A stretch of 64,000 nt of DNA from NCBI RefSeq assembly GCF_030758935.1, contig NZ_CP132333.1, forward strand, positions 3,410,992 to 3,474,991, written 5' to 3'. This DNA is from Geothrix sp. PMB-07 (GTDB lineage Bacteria > Acidobacteriota > Holophagae > Holophagales > Holophagaceae). Position 1 is the first letter of the stretch. Each line of letters opens with the position of its first letter. The position numbers and the translations under genes were made by a program. The notes under the pieces were generated by a model. It made no database searches. It was not told the DNA's origin and saw only the letters and a program-made list of their open reading frames with translations. Positions 224 through 11,074 of the stretch are shown here, piece after piece.

Positions 224-1990
224 TCAACGGGCGATGGCAAGACCTCCGCTCTTAAGGAAGGCCCCCGCATGGGTCTTCATGAAGGGCTGGCCATCGGTGT
301 AGGTGTCGTTCTGGTACATGGACTGGCCATCCGCCCCCGCGCCGAAGAGGAGGGCGATGACGCCCGCATCGGCGAACTTCCTGAGGTGGGCATCATCGCC
401 AGCGAAGAAATACTCGGGCCGGTTGTCCTTGTAGCCTTCCCGGTCTTTCCAGGTGTTCGGCACATTCAAATGGTTGCTGTTGCCCAGGGGAATCTGCCAG
501 AGCACCCAGCGTTTCTGCGCCTTGAGGTTCCACAGACGCAGCCACTCGGCGTAGCGGTTGAAGCTCTTGCTCGTGATGGGCGCGCTGTCGCTGGCATCCC
601 ACCAGCGATCTTCGCCAGCCGTGAGCCGGTAATAGTCCGAATCGCGATCCAGCGGGTCGCCCACCAGCACGTCGAAGGTCTGACCGGTGACGTTTGCAGC
701 CAGGCCCAGCTTCGACAGGAATGCATAGGCCTTGTCCACTTCGGGCTGGAGGGGCAGGGTCACACTGAAGTAGGAGATGTCCTGCAGAGTGGCCCAGGCG
801 GAAATGTGCATGCCCAGCACCACGTTGGTGGCGCCCACGGCCTTGCGCAGTTGCAAGAAGGCCAGGCCCCAACCGGCGGCGGTGTTGGGCAGGTCCTTCA
901 GTTCAGGCATGCCGGTGCTGGCGATGGCCGCGGGCGCATCCGGGTTGCCCCCGCTCTGGATCTCCATGTAGGCGTAGCCATCCCCCTCCATGAGCACCAG
1001 CACCGGTTTTCCGAACTCCTTGCAGCGCTGCATCAGCACTTTGAAATCGTCAAAATAGGAGGCCATGGTGGCGGCGTTCTGGGTCTTGCTGTAGAACTGC
1101 CCCTCGCCGCCGCCGGGCTCGTCGTTCATGCAGTAGTACTGCACCACGGGAATGGCGCCCATGGCATCGCACTCCTTCATGAAGTTCAAGCCCCACTGGC
1201 CTGAATTCGTGGGGTCATTATTCCAATTGTTCCGCCACCCCAGCGTGAAGTAGTGGTACCGCATGTCCCAGGGCACGCCGCTGGCCTTCATCCAGGTCTT
1301 GCCCGGGTCCTCCACCAGCCCCACGGAAAGGCGCGCAGGCAGCTGAGTGGGCACTGAACCCGCCGCAAGGCTCCCAGCCACGGCGGAATCACTGACCGTG
1401 ATGGTGGCGGTGGCGGATTTGGAGGTGTCGGCCACGCTGGTGGCCTTGAGGTGGTAAACGCCGTTGGTGGCGGGCGCCGTATAGAGACCAGAGGCATTCA
1501 CCGCGCCGCCGTTGGCCTCCTGAACCTGCCAGGTGACGGCGGTGGTGGTGGTGGTGCCTGTCACCACCGCCGTGAAAGCCTGGGTGCCGCTGGGCTTCAC
1601 CCGGGCGCTGGGAGGAGTGACGGATACCGTCACCCCAGGGGCACCCACCGTCACCGTGGCCGTGGCTGTGGTGCTGCCGCTTTCGTTGGTGGCCGTCAGG
1701 GTATAGAGCGTGGTGGCGGCTGGACTCACAGCCACGCTGCCCGAGGCGCCGCTGGTGGCCGGGGCGCCGTGGTCGATGCCCAGGCTGGTGGCGCCGGTGA
1801 CGTTCCAGGACAGGCTGCTGCTGGCCCCCGGGGCGATGGTGGCCGGACTGGCGATGAAGCTCGTGATCACCGGAACCGCTTTCGGTGGGGGCGGGCTTCC
1901 ACTTCCGGACGATTTCCCTCCCCCGCCGCAATGAAGAACAGCGAGCATTCCCCATAAACCCATGATGAGGTTTTGAATCAGGCGTTTCAT
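224..1990 (-). CDS. Lipoprotein with Ig-like N-domain and TIM-barrel glycoside-hydrolase-like C-domain
   Basis: This 588-residue protein starts at an ATG with GGAGG seven bases upstream. A signal peptide ends at Cys21, followed by a Gly/Ser/Pro linker, so it is probably a lipoprotein (His at -1 of the lipobox is unusual). Residues about 40-115 form an Ig-like domain ending in TLYTLTATNESGS, and about 118-200 a second beta-sandwich. Residues about 215-588 read like a (beta/alpha)8 hydrolase: aromatic-rich strands, PVVQYYCMND, PVLVLMEGDGYAYM, VLGMHISAW and WVLWQIPLGN. I cannot assign a glycoside hydrolase family. The acidic residues in YCMNDEP and MEGDG are candidate catalytic residues. A tandem motif shared with two other surface genes lies 64 bases upstream of its start. 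Confidence 0.7.
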   Translation of the reverse strand: MKRLIQNLIMGLWGMLAVLHCGGGGKSSGSGSPPPPKAVPVITSFIASPATIAPGASSSLSWNVTGATSLGIDHGAPATSGASGSVAVSPAATTLYTLTATNESGSTTATATVTVGAPGVTVSVTPPSARVKPSGTQAFTAVVTGTTTTTAVTWQVQEANGGAVNASGLYTAPATNGVYHLKATSVADTSKSATATITVSDSAVAGSLAAGSVPTQLPARLSVGLVEDPGKTWMKASGVPWDMRYHYFTLGWRNNWNNDPTNSGQWGLNFMKECDAMGAIPVVQYYCMNDEPGGGEGQFYSKTQNAATMASYFDDFKVLMQRCKEFGKPVLVLMEGDGYAYMEIQSGGNPDAPAAIASTGMPELKDLPNTAAGWGLAFLQLRKAVGATNVVLGMHISAWATLQDISYFSVTLPLQPEVDKAYAFLSKLGLAANVTGQTFDVLVGDPLDRDSDYYRLTAGEDRWWDASDSAPITSKSFNRYAEWLRLWNLKAQKRWVLWQIPLGNSNHLNVPNTWKDREGYKDNRPEYFFAGDDAHLRKFADAGVIALLFGAGADGQSMYQNDTYTDGQPFMKTHAGAFLKSGGLAIAR

Positions 1991-2053
1991 GGATCGTCCT
2001 CCGAAATCCTTCGGGATTCATTCTTGAGCATGCCCTTTCGATGCGTCTTCCCG

Positions 2054-2088
2054 CTGGTCCGCTCCATGGGAAATGCCAGTGGTCCACT
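2054..2088 (-). promoter_or_regulatory. Tandem ARYGGACCAG-type half-sites upstream of lipoprotein gene
   Basis: Read toward the lipoprotein gene, AGTGGACCAC (2088-2079) is followed 25 bp later by AGCGGACCAG (2063-2054). The spacer contains CATTT. The pair matches the arrangement found upstream of the S74-repeat gene and the Ig-like lipoprotein gene at 8690. The architecture, direct repeats with an AT-rich spacer, resembles operators described for MocR-type regulators. Assignment to the neighbouring regulator 4053-5510 is an inference. Confidence 0.5.
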
Positions 2089-3508
2089 ACTTTCTGGAAC
2101 CCGCCAGCACCTGTTCCAGTTGCCGCTTGAGGGCGGCCAATTCGGCCTGGGCGGCCTGGAGTTCCCGCTTCTGCTTCTGAAGCTCATTCAGCAGCATCGG
2201 TGCCAGCTCGTGGTAAACCACGGTCTCCACCTGGCCTTCCTTGTCCTTCACCACCAGCTCCGGCAGCACCTTCTCCACTTCTTCGGCGATGAGCCCGAAG
2301 TGCTCGCCGTCCTCCGGCTGGCTCTTGTAGCGGAAGGTCACGGGGCGCAGGTCAAACAAGCGGCTCGTCCGGTCGCCCATGTCGTTCACATCCTGCTTGA
2401 AGCGGATGGAGGAGGACACGGTGCCCAATTGCCCGTTGGCATCGATGACCACCGGGATGGCGGCGCCTCCCGTGGTGCGGCCCCGCACGCCCGCCAGGAA
2501 GGCGCGGGTCTGGGAACTCCCGATGCGGATGGTGTCGGCCTCTCCGCCCGCTCCCACGTTACCGATGGCGATGTTGTTGCTGCCGGTCAGATTGCGGCCT
2601 GCTTCGTAGCCCAAGGCGATGTTGTCGGAGGCCGTGACATTGGCTTCCAGCGCCCGCACGCCGAGGGCCACGTTGCGGCTGGCCGTCGTGCTGTTCCGCA
2701 GCGAGTAGTGCCCAACCACGGTGTTCTGGGAGCCCGTCGTGCTGACAGCGAGCCCATCGTTGCCCACGGCGATGTTTTCCGTGGCGTCGATGTTCTTAGC
2801 AAGGGCCCAGGTGCCGATGGCGATGTTGACGGATCCGGTGTTGTATTCCAGGGCGGATTTGCCGATGGCCGTGTTCCAATTCCCGGTTTGGTTGTTCCGG
2901 AGCGCATCCGCGCCCATGGCCGTGTTGAACCCGCCTGTGTTGTTGCTGATCAAGGCGTTGCTTCCCGTGGCTGCGTTGTAGCCGCCGGTTGTGTTGGAAG
3001 TCAGGGCATTGATTCCAATGGCAGTGTTGTACACCCCGGTGGCGTTGTGCATGAGCGCCGCCCCCCCGAGAGCGGTATTCCAGCTTCCCGTGGTGTTGTC
3101 ATTAAGCGACCCAGAACCAATCGCCGTATTGAAGTCGCCGGTCGTGTTGTTGAGCAAGGCATAGGTCCCCAGCGCGGAGTTGTGGCCCCCGGTGGTGTTC
3201 CAGTTGAGCGCATTGGTTCCCACCGCCGTGTTTTCATGCCCTAGGGTGTTGTGGTACAGCGCATTGGCGCCCAGCGCCGTATTTAGATTTCCACTGATGT
3301 TGCTGATGAGGGCATAAGTGCCCAAGGCATTGTTCTGGTTTCCTGTGGTGTTGTGTTGGAGTGCAGATACGCCCAGGGCGGTATTGGAGCCCCCTGTGGT
3401 GTTCGAGGCGAGCGCCTGAGTGCCCAAGGCCAGGTTGCTGCTCTGGGCCTGAGCGCCTGCAGCCAATGCCAGCGCGAGGGCGGTGGTGACAAACGCTTTC
3501 CGGTTCAT
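2087..3508 (-). CDS. Surface protein with 17-residue NTALG repeats and C-terminal S74 chaperone domain
   Basis: This is a 473-residue exported protein; AAGGAG sits eight bases before the ATG and the signal peptide ends near AGAQAQ. Residues about 28-300 are roughly sixteen tandem 17-residue repeats of the form NTALGxxALxxNTTGxx. They resemble the head repeats of trimeric autotransporters and predict a stacked beta-roll. Residues about 365-440 match the peptidase S74 intramolecular chaperone of tail-spike and tail-fibre proteins: SSIRFKQDVNDMG carries the Ser-Lys dyad region, followed by FGLIAEEVEKVLPEL. The C-terminus is a coiled coil (LQAAQAELAALKRQLEQ). In known proteins S74 trimerises a fibre and then cleaves itself off. 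No phage genes are nearby, so a bacterial surface fibre is more likely than a prophage remnant. Two tandem regulatory repeats lie upstream. Confidence 0.8.
   Translation of the reverse strand: MNRKAFVTTALALALAAGAQAQSSNLALGTQALASNTTGGSNTALGVSALQHNTTGNQNNALGTYALISNISGNLNTALGANALYHNTLGHENTAVGTNALNWNTTGGHNSALGTYALLNNTTGDFNTAIGSGSLNDNTTGSWNTALGGAALMHNATGVYNTAIGINALTSNTTGGYNAATGSNALISNNTGGFNTAMGADALRNNQTGNWNTAIGKSALEYNTGSVNIAIGTWALAKNIDATENIAVGNDGLAVSTTGSQNTVVGHYSLRNSTTASRNVALGVRALEANVTASDNIALGYEAGRNLTGSNNIAIGNVGAGGEADTIRIGSSQTRAFLAGVRGRTTGGAAIPVVIDANGQLGTVSSSIRFKQDVNDMGDRTSRLFDLRPVTFRYKSQPEDGEHFGLIAEEVEKVLPELVVKDKEGQVETVVYHELAPMLLNELQKQKRELQAAQAELAALKRQLEQVLAGSRK
2579..3427 (-). repeat. 51-bp tandem coding repeats (17-residue NTALG units)
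   Basis: About sixteen diverged 51-bp units inside the S74-domain gene encode 17-residue repeats with conserved Asn-Thr-Ala-x-Gly and Asn-Thr-Thr-Gly positions. The units are degenerate at DNA level but keep period and phase. Confidence 0.75.
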
Positions 3509-3746
3509 GGTGTCACTCCTTTTGGGGAAGGGCAGCTCGATGCATGCCCGGGGGCTGAAAGGGGTCTTGCCGCGCCAAGGGTGATTTCAACCAACGAGTC
3601 GAGCGTGACGCCTCCTCTTCCGGCACTTAGACCAAAGGGCCGAAGCACCGCAGGGGAACCAAAAGCAGGCATGATCGCCGTTGGATCAGACCGAGGAGGA
3701 GGGGGACCTCCCCAGGTCGATCATCTGGATCCGCCGGACGGAAACA

Positions 3747-3780
3747 ATGATCCACCCTCAAGAAATGAGGCTGGTCCACT
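3747..3780 (-). promoter_or_regulatory. Tandem half-sites, distal pair upstream of S74-repeat gene
   Basis: Read leftward, AGTGGACCAG (3780-3771) is followed 24 bp later by GGTGGATCAT (3756-3747), with a CATTT-containing 14-bp spacer. The second half is degenerate in the same way as the second half at 8584 (AGTGGATCTA). Confidence 0.45.
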
Positions 3781-3811
3781 CACGGCACCCTCGATTCACA
3801 AGGGAAATGCC

Positions 3812-3845
3812 CTGGTCCGCTTTATAAAAAAATCCCTGGTCCATT
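3812..3845 (-). promoter_or_regulatory. Tandem half-sites, proximal pair between S74-repeat gene and MocR-like gene
   Basis: Read leftward, AATGGACCAG (3845-3836) is followed 24 bp later by AGCGGACCAG (3821-3812). The 14-bp spacer GGATTTTTTTATAA is AT-rich and could contain a promoter element. The pair is 208 bp from the MocR-like start, so both autoregulation and control of the S74-repeat gene are possible. Confidence 0.5.
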
Positions 3846-4052
3846 CGGCCTCTGCCGGATTAACGTCATAGCAGAGTTCTTTTTCATTGGATCAAAGCCC
3901 CGCGGCTCCCAAATTCTTCCCATTCATGGGCGATCGGTTTGACTTCCCTACCGGCCGCTTCCGATGACCCCGCCCATGAATGGAAGGTTTGGCTTGACCC
4001 CCCAAATTCTCCCGCCCGCCTCGAGGGGCATCTTCCTTGCGGATCCGCACCG

Positions 4053-5510
4053 ATGAGAATCCCGGATCTACCCATCCACATCTCACACACCTCACCTCAG
4101 CCGCTGGTGATGCAGATCGTGGACGCACTGATCCTGGCCATGCGCAGCGGCCTCCTGCCTCCGGGCTCTCCCATCCCCGGCACACGTAAACTGGCGGATC
4201 AGCTGCAGGTGAGCCGGGGAACCGTGGTGGCGGCCTTTGAAGAGCTCCAGGCCAAGGGCTGGATCGACGCCAGCAGCGGCAGCGGCAGCCGGGTGTCCGA
4301 CCCCCTTCCCCGCCCGCTGAGCCTGCGGCCCGGGCAGACGCCACCGGTGCTCTCCCCCCAGGCCTTCGACCTGCCCACCCGTCCGGAGCTGGCCACGGAC
4401 CATACCAGTCGGCTCTTCAAATTGTCTTACGGCGTGACGGATGCGCGACTGATGTCTGCCGAGATCCTGGGCCGGGCCTACAGCCGCGCCATGCGGCGCC
4501 GGGCCAGCGATGTGCTGAATTTCGGCGATCCCCTCGGAGAGATGGATCTGCGGCAGGAGCTGGTGAACTACCTGCGGGAGCGGCGCGCCATCCAGACCGA
4601 TGAGATGGGCATCCTGGTGACCCGCGGCTCGCATCAGGCCCTCCGGTTGATCGCCCTGGGCCTCCTGAAGGCCGGTGACCGTGTGGCGGTGGAGAACCCC
4701 GGCAACCCCTCGGCCCGGGATGCCTTCCTGCAGCAGCAGACCCAGCTGGTTCCCATTCCGGTGGACGATCAAGGGCTGGATGTGGAAGCCCTGGAACGGG
4801 CCCTGGCCGAGGGCCCCATCCGTCTCCTCTACCTGACACCGCGGTTCCAGGTGCCCACCACCGTCACCCAGAGCGCACCCCGGCGCCAGCGTCTGTTGGA
4901 ACTGGCCAAGCACCACCGCTTCGGCATCGTGGAGGACGATCCCGAAGCCGATTACACCCTCGAAGGCCCCACCGAGGCTCCACTGGCAGCCTTCGGCACC
5001 TCCGGTTCGGTGCTGTACCTCTTCTCCTTCTCCCGCCTCCTGGCCCCTGGCCTCCGCCTGGGGCTCATCGCGGGCCCCAAGGATGCCATCGCGCGTCTCG
5101 CCAAGGCCCGCCTCCACACCGACACCCTGGGGGACATGGCCCTGGAACGGGCCTTCGCCTCCATGCTGCAGGAGGGCGAGATCCGCCGCCACGTCCACCG
5201 GGTGCAGCGCATCTACCGGGAACGCCGGGACCACCTGGTCTACCGGCTCAAGGATCTCTTCGAGGGCGACTTCACCTTCACCCTTCCCCCGGGGGGACTC
5301 TCCCTCTGGATCCGCACCCGGCCCGACCTGGACCTGGAGTCCTGGCAGAGGGGCTGCATGGACCGCGGGGTTCAGTTCCAGCTGGGTCAGTCCTATTTTA
5401 TCAACCACACGCCGGTTCCAGGTTTTCCATTCGCCTTCGGCTCTTTCGAACCCGAAGAAATGGATCAGATTTTGCTGAGAATGCATCACGCGCTGACCCA
5501 ACACCGCTGA
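4053..5510 (+). CDS. MocR-family GntR/aminotransferase-like regulator with altered PLP site
   Basis: This 485-residue protein has a GntR winged helix (residues about 8-80: PLVMQIVDAL, then PGTRKLADQLQVSRGTVV) joined by a linker to a fold-type-I aminotransferase-like domain (about 125-480). MocR regulators normally bind PLP through a Lys in a TFSK motif. Here the equivalent is SFSRLLAPG with Arg328 (CGC at 5034-5036). The usual TPSHQ is TPRFQ, and the EDDYD region reads EDDPEADY, so the cofactor pocket looks degenerate. It is therefore more likely a sensor of another ligand, or of protein contacts, than a PLP sensor. The ATG at 4053 fits the family N-terminus. A kinase gene follows after 10 bases, suggesting an operon. 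Confidence 0.85.
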   Translation: MRIPDLPIHISHTSPQPLVMQIVDALILAMRSGLLPPGSPIPGTRKLADQLQVSRGTVVAAFEELQAKGWIDASSGSGSRVSDPLPRPLSLRPGQTPPVLSPQAFDLPTRPELATDHTSRLFKLSYGVTDARLMSAEILGRAYSRAMRRRASDVLNFGDPLGEMDLRQELVNYLRERRAIQTDEMGILVTRGSHQALRLIALGLLKAGDRVAVENPGNPSARDAFLQQQTQLVPIPVDDQGLDVEALERALAEGPIRLLYLTPRFQVPTTVTQSAPRRQRLLELAKHHRFGIVEDDPEADYTLEGPTEAPLAAFGTSGSVLYLFSFSRLLAPGLRLGLIAGPKDAIARLAKARLHTDTLGDMALERAFASMLQEGEIRRHVHRVQRIYRERRDHLVYRLKDLFEGDFTFTLPPGGLSLWIRTRPDLDLESWQRGCMDRGVQFQLGQSYFINHTPVPGFPFAFGSFEPEEMDQILLRMHHALTQHR

Positions 5511-5520
5511 TGACGATTCC

Positions 5521-8500
5521 ATGAGTGATCTCGAAACCCGCATTCTCGACCTCGCCGTGCGGCGCGGCCTTCTCGATTCCGCCGACTTGGACGCCCTCAC
5601 CCTTGAGGAGGACACCCTCGGCTCCCAACAATGGGGGCCGCGCATCACGTCGCTCCTGCGCTCGGGCCGCCTCGATCAGCAGGGCCTCCAGGCCCTCATG
5701 GGCGATCTCTTCCATGGCTCCACCGAATCCCGTGCGCCCGAGGGATCCGACGACACCCTCATCCTGCCCCAGGGACTGACCTGGCAGGGCTATCAGGATC
5801 TCCAGCTCATCGGCGTCGGCGGCCAGGCCCTCATCTACAAGGCCAGGGACATGCAGCTGGATCGCTGGGTGGCCCTGAAGTTTCCCATCCACGACCGGCC
5901 CCAGCGGGTGGCCCACATGCTGCGCGAGGCCCGAGCCCAGGCTCAGCTGGATCATCCCAATGTCCTGAAAGTGCTGGAAGTGGGCGAGCATCAGGGCAAG
6001 CCCTTCATCGCCATGCACTATGTCGAGGGCGGCAACCTCGCAGAGAACTACGTCCGCTTCTCCATTGAAACCCGTGTGCGCCTGATGAAGGCCGTTGCCG
6101 AAGGCCTTCAGGAGGCCCACAGCCATGGCCTGCTGCACCTGGACCTCAAGCCCGGCAACATCCTGGTCGACACGACGCACCCTGAGGAGCCCTGGCCCTA
6201 CTTGACGGATTTCGGCCTGGTGCGGCTGGAGGATTACGGGGGCCGGGTGCTGGCCGAACGCCTGCCAGCTTTCGGGACGGCCCCCTTCTCCAGTCCTGAG
6301 CAGATGGCGCGAGACTTGGCCCACCTGGATCGCCGGAGCGACATCTATTCCCTGGGGGCCACCCTGTATTCCGTGCTCTCGGGGCACACGCCCTTCGATT
6401 CAAGGGATCCCCTGGACATCCTCGGGATGGATCCCGTGCCCTTGCGGGCCCGGGATCCCATGCTTCCCAAGGATCTGGAGGCCATCGTCGCCAAATGCCT
6501 GCGGTCCGCCCCGGAGGAACGGTACGGCACCGCCAAAGCCGTGGCCGATGACCTGCAGCGCTTCCTGGATGGTGTCCCCGTGCATGCCCGTCGGCCCTCC
6601 CCCGCCTACCGCCTGGCCAAGTGGGTGCGGCGGAACCGCAGCCTTGCGGCAATGACGGTCATCGCCATCCTCTTGTTCACCGGATTCGGCACCTGGGCCA
6701 TCCTGGCCGCGCGGCGGCAGGCACTCCAGGTGCGGCTGGCCAACAAGTACGGGCGGGATGTCCAGAGCATGGAGCAGCTCCTCCGGCTGGCCCACCTGTC
6801 CCGCAAGCACAACCGGCGTCCGGCCGTAACAAACGCCCGGGAGACCATGGCCGCCATCGAACAGGAAATGAAGGCCCTGGGACCTGGCGCCATGGGGCCT
6901 GGGTCCTACGCCCTGGGCATGGGCCACCTCGCCCTCAGCGACTGGGACGCGGCGCGGCGGCATCTGGAAACCGCCTGGCAGGCGGGCTTCCATTCTCCCG
7001 CCTGCGCTCAGGCCCGCGGTGAAGTACTGACCCATTTCTTCATGAAAGCCAATCCGCGGCTCAACCTCATCGCCGACCCGGCGCAGCGGGAAGTGGAGCG
7101 GAAGCGCCTCGAAAGCACCCTGCGCGAACCGGCCCTCGCCTGTTTCGAAATCGCCCGGGCAGCGGGCCTGGAAACGGCCTACCAGGAAGCCATGGAGGCC
7201 TACCTCGCCAGGGACATCGAGCGGGCACTGCGCTGCGCCCAGACCGCCTTCGAGCAGACCCGCTGGCGCTATGAAGCGCGCTTCCTGACCGCCGACCTGC
7301 TGATGGAACAGGCCATACCCCTTCGCGCTGCGGGCGACATCGCAGGCGCCCAGCGGAAATGCGACGAGTCGCTGAAGGTGCTGGAACCTGTGACCGATAT
7401 TGCTCCCAGCGATCCCGCCAGCTGGATCAAGATCGGCCTGCTCTACTTCAACATGGCCTTTGACCGGCGGCAGGAACCGCAATGGCTGGAGCGGGCCCTG
7501 GCCAGCTTCGCCACGGCAGTGGAAGTCGATCCCGGCTTCGGAGAGAGCTACGGCTACCTCTCCATGGCCCAGGGCGCGGCTGCGGATGCGGTGGAGGTGC
7601 AGGGCGGGGACCCCATGCCTCTGCTAAACCTTTGCGTGGCCAATGGCGAGATGAGCCAATCCCTCACGCCTCCGGGCCAGGTGAACACCCATCTGGGCGA
7701 AGCCTATGGCTGGCGCGCAGGCGCCCTTCTGAAACGCGGGCTGGATGCCATTCCCGACCTGGACCGAGCCATCGCGAACCTGCGCCAGGCCATCGACCTT
7801 GGAAACCACGAGCACGTCACCTATACCCTCCTGCTGACGGTCTCCAAATGGCGAGGCGAAGCGGCCTTCCAGGTTGGAGCGGACCCCGTCCCGTACCTTG
7901 AACAAGCCATCGGATGGGCCCGAAAAAACACCCAGTTCGATGCCTCCAACCTGCAACGGCAGAAGGTCTTCATGGAGCGGCGCCTCGACCTTCTGGACAT
8001 GCAGTTCCGCCTGAAACAGACGCCGAAAGCGGGTGTGATCGAGGCCCTGGTTCAGGAAGCTCAAGCGATCCTGGAACGCACGGCCAAGGAGAACCGCTTC
8101 AAAGCCGAACTCCGGGTGGTGCTCGGTCGCGCCCTGCGCCTCCGCGCCCGCGAAGCCTTCCATACCGGGAAGCCCTTTGAAGCTGATTTCGAACAGGCCC
8201 TCCAACTCACCCGGAAAGCCGTCGAGCAGGATCCCAAAGAACCCGCCTTCCAGGCCGAACTGGCCAAGGCCTGCCTGGAGGCCGGTGGCTGCCAGTTCCA
8301 ACTCAACCTGCCCTGCGATGCCATCCTTAAACGCGGCCTGGCAGAGGCCCGGAAATACCAGCGCATGGTACCCGGTCGGGCGGATGCCGCCGGGATGCCC
8401 TTGGTGGCCGAGTCCTTCTTGGCCCGGGCCCAGCGTCAGCCCCAGGATGTGGCCAGGTCTGAGGCCCGCTTGAAGCAACGCCTGGCTGAGCATCCCCGCG

Positions 8501-8544
8501 AGGCTGCTCCTCTCAAAGCCCTTCTCGCCCTCCAGGGAGACTGA
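5521..8544 (+). CDS. Transmembrane Ser/Thr protein kinase with C-terminal TPR region
   Basis: This 1007-residue Hanks-type kinase has an N-terminal helical region (1-85) and a kinase domain at about 91-355: loop GVGGQA (98-103), Lys120 in VALKFP, HLDLKPGN with Asp208 (HRD is HLD), and DFG at 230-232. One membrane helix follows at about 375-397. The remaining 600 residues are helical with TPR-like pairs (for example residues near AALASFATAVEVDPGFG), probably extracytoplasmic. The loss of Arg in HRD suggests activation that does not need activation-loop phosphorylation (family knowledge). It lies 10 bases after the MocR-like gene with no clear ribosome-binding site, so translational coupling is likely. 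Its target is unknown; the regulator next to it is the obvious candidate. Confidence 0.9.
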   Translation: MSDLETRILDLAVRRGLLDSADLDALTLEEDTLGSQQWGPRITSLLRSGRLDQQGLQALMGDLFHGSTESRAPEGSDDTLILPQGLTWQGYQDLQLIGVGGQALIYKARDMQLDRWVALKFPIHDRPQRVAHMLREARAQAQLDHPNVLKVLEVGEHQGKPFIAMHYVEGGNLAENYVRFSIETRVRLMKAVAEGLQEAHSHGLLHLDLKPGNILVDTTHPEEPWPYLTDFGLVRLEDYGGRVLAERLPAFGTAPFSSPEQMARDLAHLDRRSDIYSLGATLYSVLSGHTPFDSRDPLDILGMDPVPLRARDPMLPKDLEAIVAKCLRSAPEERYGTAKAVADDLQRFLDGVPVHARRPSPAYRLAKWVRRNRSLAAMTVIAILLFTGFGTWAILAARRQALQVRLANKYGRDVQSMEQLLRLAHLSRKHNRRPAVTNARETMAAIEQEMKALGPGAMGPGSYALGMGHLALSDWDAARRHLETAWQAGFHSPACAQARGEVLTHFFMKANPRLNLIADPAQREVERKRLESTLREPALACFEIARAAGLETAYQEAMEAYLARDIERALRCAQTAFEQTRWRYEARFLTADLLMEQAIPLRAAGDIAGAQRKCDESLKVLEPVTDIAPSDPASWIKIGLLYFNMAFDRRQEPQWLERALASFATAVEVDPGFGESYGYLSMAQGAAADAVEVQGGDPMPLLNLCVANGEMSQSLTPPGQVNTHLGEAYGWRAGALLKRGLDAIPDLDRAIANLRQAIDLGNHEHVTYTLLLTVSKWRGEAAFQVGADPVPYLEQAIGWARKNTQFDASNLQRQKVFMERRLDLLDMQFRLKQTPKAGVIEALVQEAQAILERTAKENRFKAELRVVLGRALRLRAREAFHTGKPFEADFEQALQLTRKAVEQDPKEPAFQAELAKACLEAGGCQFQLNLPCDAILKRGLAEARKYQRMVPGRADAAGMPLVAESFLARAQRQPQDVARSEARLKQRLAEHPREAAPLKALLALQGD

Positions 8545-8559
8545 GCCGGGTGTCCCCGA

Positions 8560-8593
8560 AGTGGACCAGCGGTTTTTCTCAATAGTGGATCTA
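8560..8593 (+). promoter_or_regulatory. Tandem ARYGGACCAG-type half-sites upstream of Ig-like lipoprotein gene
   Basis: AGTGGACCAG (8560-8569) is followed 24 bp later by AGTGGATCTA (8584-8593), with the T-rich spacer CGGTTTTTCTCAAT. Orientation relative to the downstream gene and spacing are the same as at the pairs upstream of the two leftward surface genes. It begins 16 bases after the kinase stop. Confidence 0.5.
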
Positions 8594-8689
8594 GGCCGGG
8601 AGTCCCTCCTGCGGAATGCTGGTTCAGCCGGGTGATGCCCGGCCTATGAAGCGATTTCACCCCCCACCGCTTCACCACAGGAGGTTGCC

Positions 8690-11074
8690 TTGTTCTTGCA
8701 CCTGACCCCAAGGTCGGGCCGCATGCGTATGCTTCGGCAGGCGTTCGGCCCCGTGTCCCTGGCCATGGCCTTCGCCCTGGCTTTCACCGCCTGCGGCGGC
8801 GGCGGAGGTTCCTCCTCGGGAACCCCCGTTTCCTCAGCACTCGCCATCGGCACCCAACCCGCCAATGCCACCGCCGCAGTGGGCGCCACGGCCACGTTCA
8901 ACGTGGTGGCCTCCGGTGGAGCCGCACCCTACACCTACCAGTGGAGCAAGACCCCCAAGGGTGGCACCGCCGCCGCCATCCCCGGCGCCACCTCGGCCGC
9001 GTACACCACGCCCGCTCTCGTGGCCGGTGATGATGGCGCCACCTTCACGGTGACCGTCAAGGATGCCGCCAACGCCAGTGTCACCAGCAATGCCGCCACG
9101 TTGACGATCGGCACCGTTCCCGGCGCCCTGGCGGTCACCCTGGCCGATCAGAGCGTGGCCTCCGGCACCCCCGCCACCTTCACCCCCACGGTGACCGGCG
9201 GCAAGTCCCCCTTCACCTACGCCTGGAAGAAGGCTGGCGCCACCATCACCGGCGCCACCGGCGCCACCTACACCACCCCCGCCACGAGCAGCGCCGATGA
9301 CGGCGTGCAGTACTTCGTGAGCGTGACGGATTCCGCCACCCCCGCCGCCACGGCCACCGCCTCGGCCATCCTGCATGTGACCAATCCGCCCCTGACCACC
9401 CTGTTCGACACCAAGCTCAGCGCGGTTCCCGCGGTGACCTTCCTGCTCAAGAAGTCCGATGGCACTGCCCTCGGATCCAGTGTCAAAGTGGATCAGCGGA
9501 TCACGGTCCCTGGCGGGTACACCGTCGCCAGCACGGACTCAGTGGCCGATGGCGCCACGGGCCACTTCCGCGCCCGCACCTACCCCATCCGTCTGGTGGG
9601 CGATACGAGCAAGAACGTGGGCGACCACCTGGAAAGCCTCACCGTGAGCCAGGATGCCACCCTCACCTACCAGGCCTCCAGGCAGAACTGGACCGTCGTG
9701 CTCAACGGATACGCCTCCTCGCCAGTATCCCCCGCTTCCTTCACGCCCCTTACCAGCTACGCCGTGGACATCTACCAGTGCGACAGCCAGGGCGTGGTCG
9801 CCTGGGGCCCCACTCAAACCGGCTTTGAAGATCCCCGCGTCCTGACCGTAACCGGCACGGTCGCTGCCAACGCCAACACCGTCACCTTCAACACCGAGCT
9901 GTTCAAGGGCACCTACCGGGCCGTCTTCATTCCCAAGGCCGGTTCCGATTTCGCCGCGGGCGTTCCCCTCTACCTTTCCGATGTCATCACCGTGGCCGGT
10001 GGCGGCGTCACCAACGAGAACCAGAGCCTGACCCTGCCGGGCCCCAGTGATGCGAAGCGCTTCACCCTCAAGCTCAGTCCCAAGACCGGAGCACCGGCCT
10101 TCGCCGCCAATGATTTCTCCGTGGAATTGCGAGACAAGACCTCCCTGCTGCGGGTCGCCTACGGGAAGATCAAGGCCGACGGCACCGTCTCCTTCCCCAC
10201 CAACCTGACCGATGTCATCGCTGCCGTCACCGACCTCCGCGCGGGACCGGCTCAGAACAAGGTCGTGGCGGTTAAAACCTTCACCGGCCTCACCACGAGC
10301 ACCCCCACCGCCACCCTCACCCAGTACAACGTGAAGGGCAGCGTAACGGCTCCAGTGCCCATTCCTGCCACGGCCAAGGTGACTGTGGGCCTCAAATCAG
10401 GCCTCACCGGCGCCAATTGGGACCGCGATCTGGGCTCCCTCGTCTTCCCCGTCACTCTCGCCACACCCTCATTCGACCTGAACCTCTTTGAGGGCGATTG
10501 GGCTGTCAGCGCCGATGCCGCCAGCATCCCCCAATGCCCAGATGGCCCCACGGTCGCCTTCACCCTGACCGCCGACAAGGCCGATGCCAACGTGGCCATT
10601 CCGACCGGCGGCATCATCACCGGCACCCTGCAGACCAAATCCAACATCACCCTGCCAAACATCCAGATCGACTTGGTTGACCCCAACACCGCCCGGGTTG
10701 TGAAGTCCACCACCAGCGGGGTCGGCGGCAAATACATCTTCTACGTGCCCTATGGCACCACCTACAACTTGGTAGTGGACTCCGACGCCTATGTGACCAC
10801 TGGCTTCACCGCCTCCGCCAGCAGTCCGACCGTGACTCGGGACCTGGTGCAGTATCCGGTCAACGGCCGCATCACTGATGGCTCCGTGGGCATTCCCGCC
10901 CGCGCCTACGCCGGTGCTGCCAACAATCCCATCACTGCCGCCGCCGACGGCACCTTCACCCTGAAGCTGTTTGAGGGCCAGAACTACGTCTGGATCAATC
11001 CCCCCGCAGGCCCGAGCAACCTGGGCCCGGCCGTTTTCACCAATGTCGTGGTCAACAGCACCACCGCACCGTAA
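8690..11074 (+). CDS. Ig-like domain lipoprotein of unknown function
   Basis: The frame is 794 codons from a TTG at 8690 that has AGGAGG five bases upstream. An ATG at 8723 is the alternative but lacks a ribosome-binding site. A signal peptide ends in FTAC (Cys35 from TTG), followed by a Gly/Ser run, so it is a lipoprotein. Two Ig-like repeats follow at about 45-135 and 138-225 (APYTYQWSK, SPFTYAWKK). The middle has no recognised domain. Residues about 665-730 look like a carboxypeptidase-regulatory beta-sandwich (GGIITGTLQTK through TTYNLVVDSDAYVT). No catalytic motif is visible. It probably acts as a surface-binding or structural protein. The tandem motif upstream links it to the MocR-like regulator's putative regulon. 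Confidence 0.8.
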   Translation: MFLHLTPRSGRMRMLRQAFGPVSLAMAFALAFTACGGGGGSSSGTPVSSALAIGTQPANATAAVGATATFNVVASGGAAPYTYQWSKTPKGGTAAAIPGATSAAYTTPALVAGDDGATFTVTVKDAANASVTSNAATLTIGTVPGALAVTLADQSVASGTPATFTPTVTGGKSPFTYAWKKAGATITGATGATYTTPATSSADDGVQYFVSVTDSATPAATATASAILHVTNPPLTTLFDTKLSAVPAVTFLLKKSDGTALGSSVKVDQRITVPGGYTVASTDSVADGATGHFRARTYPIRLVGDTSKNVGDHLESLTVSQDATLTYQASRQNWTVVLNGYASSPVSPASFTPLTSYAVDIYQCDSQGVVAWGPTQTGFEDPRVLTVTGTVAANANTVTFNTELFKGTYRAVFIPKAGSDFAAGVPLYLSDVITVAGGGVTNENQSLTLPGPSDAKRFTLKLSPKTGAPAFAANDFSVELRDKTSLLRVAYGKIKADGTVSFPTNLTDVIAAVTDLRAGPAQNKVVAVKTFTGLTTSTPTATLTQYNVKGSVTAPVPIPATAKVTVGLKSGLTGANWDRDLGSLVFPVTLATPSFDLNLFEGDWAVSADAASIPQCPDGPTVAFTLTADKADANVAIPTGGIITGTLQTKSNITLPNIQIDLVDPNTARVVKSTTSGVGGKYIFYVPYGTTYNLVVDSDAYVTTGFTASASSPTVTRDLVQYPVNGRITDGSVGIPARAYAGAANNPITAAADGTFTLKLFEGQNYVWINPPAGPSNLGPAVFTNVVVNSTTAP

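Follow-up and report, generated by a model that had tools for sequence, protein, structure and literature searches.

The window, a stretch of 64,000 nucleotides from Geothrix sp. PMB-07 (G000:C1:3410992-3474991), was taken from a one-contig genome of 4.24 Mb, and the sister genome G028 served for comparison. Three genes for predicted surface proteins surround a gene for a MocR-like regulator, which is followed directly by a Ser/Thr protein kinase gene (Table 1). The earlier note had described four pairs of direct half-sites at this locus, with spacings of 25, 24, 24 and 24 bp, each oriented toward a neighbouring surface-protein gene. All four pairs are present in the sequence within one base of the positions given, site A with 25 bp and sites B to D with 24 bp from start to start, and all four read toward the gene that had been named. 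The counterpart of site A in G028 has a spacing of 24 bp. The start codon of the 224-1990 lipoprotein gene lies 64 bp downstream of site A, and sites B and C are situated between the MocR gene and the S74 gene and are oriented away from the former. The second boxes of site C (GTGGATCA) and site D (GTGGATCT) are degenerate.

Table 1. Genes, paired sites and -10-like elements in the window, and selected sites elsewhere in G000 and G028 with their targets.
Feature	Position	Strand	Sequence or product	Remarks
CGGGG lipoprotein gene	224..1990	-	588 aa; lipobox by eye and by rule	downstream of site A
-10-like element, site A	2027..2032	-	CATGCT (imperfect)	offset +23 past box 2
Site A	2055..2088	-	AGTGGACCA ... 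AGCGGACCA	25 bp start to start
S74 gene	2087..3508	-	repetitive fibre-like protein; Peptidase_S74 (endosialidase chaperone) C-terminus; Sec-type N-terminus (by eye)	downstream of sites B and C
-10-like element, site C	3720..3725	-	GATGAT	offset +23
Site C	3748..3780	-	AGTGGACCA ... GGTGGATCA	24 bp; closer of B and C to the S74 gene
Site B	3813..3845	-	AATGGACCA ... AGCGGACCA	24 bp; 65 bp upstream of site C
MocR-architecture regulator gene	4053..5510	+	485 aa; GntR wHTH and aminotransferase domain	Arg328 for the presumed Schiff-base Lys
Ser/Thr protein kinase gene	5521..8544	+	1007 aa	
Site D	8560..8592	+	AGTGGACCA ... TAGTGGATCT	24 bp
-10-like element, site D	8615..8620	+	AATGCT (imperfect)	offset +23
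CGGGGG lipoprotein gene	8690..11074	+	Ig_3 match; SprB match just below cut-off	downstream of site D
Site	G000 3410500		GH18 protein	
Site	G028 C9 E		GH18 protein	
Site	G000 3872425		GH5 protein	
Site	G000 3406023		lipoprotein; GDSL match just below cut-off	
Site	G000 1280670		DUF1800 protein	no obvious exported target
Site	G000 4162310		lanthipeptide-leader-like ORF (NF038153, 18.6 bits; below cut-off 22)	no obvious exported target
Site	G028 C18:142412		LanC-like and LanB-type genes	no obvious exported target
Sites	G000 2581557, 2043725, 2029733, 2032050			no obvious exported target
Site	G028 C27:5999			no obvious exported target
Sites	G028 C9 B, C9 C		S74 gene remnant	no obvious exported target

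Chance had been thought unlikely to explain the pairs, and genome scans bear this out. The composite pattern RYGGACCANNNNNWTTYYNNNNRRGYGGAYYA, with up to three mismatches, was found 18 times in G000 and 11 times in G028, compared with one and two matches, respectively, of the reversed-pattern control. With up to two mismatches, 41 genomes of the genus yielded nine matches in G000, seven in G028 and seven in the other 39 together, against two control matches in all 41. The 25-bp form was found six times in G000, site A included, and three times in G028 (control 0). When the T-core was omitted, the pattern with up to two mismatches fell below the control (77 versus 112 in G000, 86 versus 110 in G028); its exact matches in G000, at least eight and without a control of their own, were all among the 18 sites. 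GGACCA-gap-GGACCA with a free gap also stayed below the control (10 versus 63), and the half-site RYGGACCAG with up to one mismatch was in mild excess in the window (120 versus a shuffle mean of 84.3). Because the looser patterns were not above control, whereas the composite was far above it, the signal sits in the whole composite motif; that half-site pairs alone say little is a real limit in the GC-rich genome G000. A search of viral contigs gave no match.

For further analysis, 28 sites were chosen by hand, 18 in G000 and 10 in G028. Left out as background, either for lying in coding frames or for having three mismatches without support, were G000 516156, 908512, 1038594, 2061196, 2866546 and 3566217 and G028 C26:188890, C7:155683, C11:40073 and C18:582412. 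Also left out were G028 C18:130103, which has one mismatch, although it resembles G000 2029733, other one-mismatch matches (G000 1992340, 2347161, 2596208 and several of G028) and a pair in G004. Four tabulated sites lie inside long open frames of the mechanical gene caller, the starts of which were taken as too far upstream. Seven G000/G028 counterpart pairs, judged by neighbouring genes, are among the 28 sites, which are thus not all independent. The earlier note had proposed a dedicated local regulon; a purely local one was rejected, as 14 of the 18 G000 sites lie outside the window, whereas a regulon-like element with oriented sites stood. Three of the outside sites are at most 8 kb from the window's left end, and seven of the 18 (3403006, 3406023, 3410500 and A to D) fall within about 17 kb around 4053-5510.

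The G004 pair, two copies of AGTGGACCTG 23 bp apart, is flanked on one side by a Cys-lipoprotein gene and on the other by a different MocR-kinase pair. This type of pattern was not in excess (one exact match in 41 genomes versus 13 control matches at up to one mismatch), and the G004 pair therefore supports little. A weaker motif likeness was seen at L047:8923-8955, with a score of 22.9 (37.6 to 46.6 for the listed sites, at most 14.2 for the background elsewhere in the window); it is located just upstream of a 53% MocR paralogue and reads toward a divergent gene whose N-terminus is signal-like and whose GC3 is low.

The expectation that the sites precede genes for exported proteins held for 18 of the 28, which have a lipoprotein or Sec-type gene, and not for the other 10 (four in G028, six in G000), for which no obvious gene of this kind follows. 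A lipobox-containing ORF with an ATG start was found on the same strand within 480 bp downstream of 13 of the 28 sites, compared with 34 of 4000 places drawn at random from anywhere, not only upstream of genes; such targets had already been seen when the rule was written. Two lipoproteins that are readily recognized by eye, encoded downstream of G000 3406023 and G028 C4, escape this rule, and their sites belong to five further ones that by eye precede a lipoprotein gene or, in the case of window sites B and C and G028 C30, a Sec-type gene. Surface fibres and lipoproteins, the targets originally proposed, are indeed among them, but so are a lanthipeptide-leader-like ORF, LanB/LanC-like and DUF1800 genes, a His kinase gene and a response-regulator-like gene. 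Three leader-like matches were found in each genome: in G000, 4161977 lies about 250 bp and 2033380 about 1.3 kb past a site, and in G028 one (C9:49059) follows sites B/C. Members of the 224-1990-like lipoprotein family with a site in G000 are at 3412981, 3410434, 3405956, 761476 and 3872331 (N-terminal match), together with a remnant at 766004; the two weaker members at 2460616 and 2395490 have none. Sites 765894 and 3403006 of G000 are upstream of lipoprotein remnants that are short and appear broken. At L091:3451-3846 and L090:4785-5030, two short and seemingly disrupted lipoprotein N-termini still stand behind well-formed sites. Two sites, with spacings of 24 and 25 bp, are found at L096:3234-5584, close to a gene for a His kinase, to response-regulator-like genes and to a lanthipeptide-leader-like ORF.

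The description of 4053-5510 as a MocR-type regulator was borne out by its architecture, an N-terminal GntR wHTH (PF00392, 46.8 bits, cut-off 27) and a C-terminal fold-type-I aminotransferase domain (PF00155, 74 bits, cut-off 19.7), and by matches to the solved GabR and 7pq9 chains. The cofactor lysine usual in this family is replaced: in five of five printed alignments to solved aminotransferases, Arg328 aligns with a Lys, which we take to be the Schiff-base Lys. The gene also appears to share an operon with a Ser/Thr kinase gene. The equivalog cut-off of the PdxR NCBIfam was not reached (307.8 versus 320 bits). Judged by its sequence, the protein is probably a PLP-free MocR, and Arg328 together with the apparent kinase operon points to another likely mechanism. 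An Arg at the PLP-lysine position is shared by L046, L047 and L048 (subclade support 100/100). Among 44 aligned MocR proteins, 12, 4053-5510 included, lack the Lys and form one moderately supported cluster of 12 with long branches (94/92); lysine loss is common to relatives without a known link to the motif. Five MocR-like proteins have a Gln instead (FEQILAPG; L051 and L036-L039 from G028, G033, G013, G034 and G030), and no kinase motif was seen near them, L036 being near a contig end.

A close orthologue of 4053-5510 was found in two of 47 genomes of the genus, G000 itself and G028, and the other 39 scanned genomes had no match at E<=1e-115. In the search for MocR genes, the best match outside these two genomes was 43% identical, and at E<=1e-40 five other MocR genes were detected in G000 and eight in G028, each of them a potential binder. 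Across the 41 genomes, the motif was in excess only in G000 and G028, which both have the close orthologue. These two are close relatives, so that this co-occurrence is in effect one event.

It is fairly probable, in our judgement, that the pairs are operators of one regulon, that the MocR-like protein 4053-5510 or a close paralogue binds them as a dimer, and that they activate genes for exported proteins. The half-sites contacted by the dimer would read approximately ARTGGACCA and RRGYGGAYCW, in direct orientation and at a distance of 24-25 bp. Once bound, the protein would substitute for the -35 contact as an activator, and it would switch on exported lipoproteins, polysaccharide-degrading enzymes, the fibre-like protein and lanthipeptide-type genes, the signal arriving via the kinase rather than via PLP. 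Linkage, the single co-occurrence event and the likeness of the half-sites to published MocR sites suggest 4053-5510 as the best candidate binder. The cis-element oriented toward surface-protein genes most likely marks a regulon with the neighbouring MocR protein as the best candidate regulator; the element is real, genome-wide and regulon-like, and it is probably MocR-operated.

The same operators might instead be bound by another MocR paralogue or by a regulator encoded elsewhere, and the closeness to 4053-5510 would then reflect hitch-hiking. The spread of the sites over the genome, the presence of six MocR genes in G000 at E<=1e-40, 4053-5510 included, and the location of some sites before a His kinase gene and, by eye, a response-regulator-like gene are in line with this explanation. 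We regard it as rather unlikely, as it is opposed by the clustering of seven of the 18 G000 sites around the regulator gene, by the lack of a motif excess in the 39 genomes that have no match at E<=1e-115, and by the 43% identity of the best match outside G000 and G028.

The promoter geometry bears on a further alternative. An AAnGAT -10-like element was recognized past box 2 at +22/23, where xxxGAT is present in 14 of the 28 sites; non-overlapping offset pairs gave 0-4 of 28, and the overlapping pairs 4 and 10. In a consensus-free test with 13 G000 sites, the best block was AATGAT at +23, and 26 of 3000 shuffles were as good. Of eight sites added after the element had been noticed, one being the counterpart of another, five carry xxxGAT. 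The exact GAT ending is absent in 14 of the 28 sites, including site B in either genome and site C in G028. Site B has no -10-like element of its own and may be an auxiliary site or may serve the divergent MocR gene. No shared -35 was evident at the tabulated sites, and with the -10-like element at a fixed distance this places the centre of box 1 at about -62 and that of box 2 at about -38 relative to the predicted start. From this geometry, we infer an activator sitting on the -35 region, with box 2 at about -38. The GGA-rich boxes and the fixed -10-like element would also suit direct promoter recognition by an alternative (ECF-like) sigma factor, but the 21-22 bp that separate box 2 from the -10-like element exceed what a -35/-10 pair allows, and the equally conserved box 1 would not be needed by a sigma factor, making this quite improbable.

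Five regions with a site in both G000 and G028 were aligned, and 100 of 109 box positions (19/19, 33/36, 16/18, 15/18 and 17/18 by region) were identical, compared with 484 of 914 positions elsewhere (72/126, 128/277, 49/92, 169/307 and 66/112). For site D, all 19 box positions are identical in G028. The regions were chosen for a motif match in both genomes, and part of this difference is therefore built in, whereas the low identity outside the boxes is not. After sites B/C of G028, all that is left of the S74 gene is a 3' remnant (by eye), and these sites lack the -10-like element. The stretches at about 10740-10850 and at 11060-11218 of L046 (G028) cover this remnant and a lanthipeptide-leader-like ORF downstream of the kept sites.

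That the sites are functionless, arisen by chance or copied along with duplicated lipoprotein genes, is very unlikely: several targets do belong to one lipoprotein N-terminal family and two sites precede remnants, but unrelated genes are also preceded by sites, the boxes were kept and their surroundings were not, and the -10 distance is fixed across unrelated targets. Scattered ends of mobile elements are no more credible, even though IS21-like elements carry multiple terminal repeats and their multi-copy direct repeats are of similar letter make-up, because the sites keep their orientation toward genes with little conservation outside the boxes, and because a search for IstB gave a single partial IstB_IS21 match per genome (positions 95-195 of 238; its 40 bits exceed the cut-off, and the open frames measure 489-491 aa), which in G000 lies at 4236359, away from all listed sites and not flanked by these repeats.

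Direct repeats and a TGG/TGT core are usual in the operators of MocR factors, and the repeat distance generally corresponds to one or several helix turns. The system proposed here resembles the MocR/GabR subfamily (GabR, PdxR, TauR, EnuR) in its GntR wHTH plus aminotransferase-type domain and in the tandem direct repeats with a TGG core, which here are predicted operators only. It differs in the replacement of the PLP Schiff-base Lys by Arg328, in mostly exported-protein targets instead of PLP/amine metabolism, in the kinase gene of the apparent operon, and in a distance of 24-25 bp, which with 10.5 bp to the turn amounts to about 2.3-2.4 turns and not a whole number. TauR has been described as an activator whose binding sites are CTGGACYTAA direct repeats (PMC5320631), and half-sites GTCCACT/ACTGGAC are predicted for the MocR-type YczR (PMC4944035, section 3.3); both have TGGAC in common with the boxes described here, and the YczR half-sites have the same AGTGGAC core. 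The YczR-YczE group likewise links a MocR protein to membrane protein genes, but YczE is an integral membrane protein, the repeats are mixed inverted and direct with 12-bp spacing, and the sections covered mention no kinase (PMC4944035).

The kinase gene begins 10 bp past the MocR stop codon, so that both probably form one operon. The encoded protein matches PF00069 (123 bits, cut-off 31.7), and its motifs are those of a presumably active Ser/Thr kinase. PknB-like signalling proteins are similar in the VALK, HxDxKPxN and DFG motifs, which begin at residues 117, 206 and 230, in a TM-like hydrophobic stretch (one, about residues 374-398, Kyte-Doolittle scan) and in a long C-terminal region. Differences are an NCBIfam PknB_PASTA match far below cut-off (200.9 versus 450), HLD in place of the usual HRD, and the pairing with a MocR gene; TPR_11 and Sel1 matches were both under cut-off. 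A kinase motif neighbours the MocR gene at 18 of the 44 loci of the genus that were examined. Flanks at many of these loci extend for just 1500 bases, and of the loci without the motif at least two lie at contig ends. In G000, G028 and G004, 10 of 20 MocR genes adjoin a Pkinase match (2/6, 4/9 and 4/5), while with 26, 26 and 23 Pkinase matches, respectively, the estimated chance adjacency is about 1% (about 3,600 genes). Since the arrangements vary (downstream, divergent, convergent, upstream), a functional link is favoured. Within one clade of 13, the adjacency looks like plain inheritance, and another clade of 14 rows (L018 to L057) has no kinase motif. In the open-licence literature, a scope outside which most subscription papers fall, no paper combining MocR, serine threonine kinase and phosphorylation was found, and in a wider search the pairing appeared in no title or opening abstract among the matches listed.

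We tentatively suggest, as a possibility short of an even chance, a family of PLP-less MocR activators that are switched by a neighbouring membrane Ser/Thr kinase in a two-component-like manner and drive a secretome made up of lipoproteins, lanthipeptides and enzymes that degrade glycans. What is novel in this reading, and as yet unproven, is that a kinase would control a PLP-free MocR protein. If true, the results would provide a testable promoter code and a target list for the secreted proteins of an understudied genus of Acidobacteriota. They would also mean that an enzyme-derived regulator can lose its cofactor lysine and yet keep its regulatory role, possibly with a kinase providing a new input.
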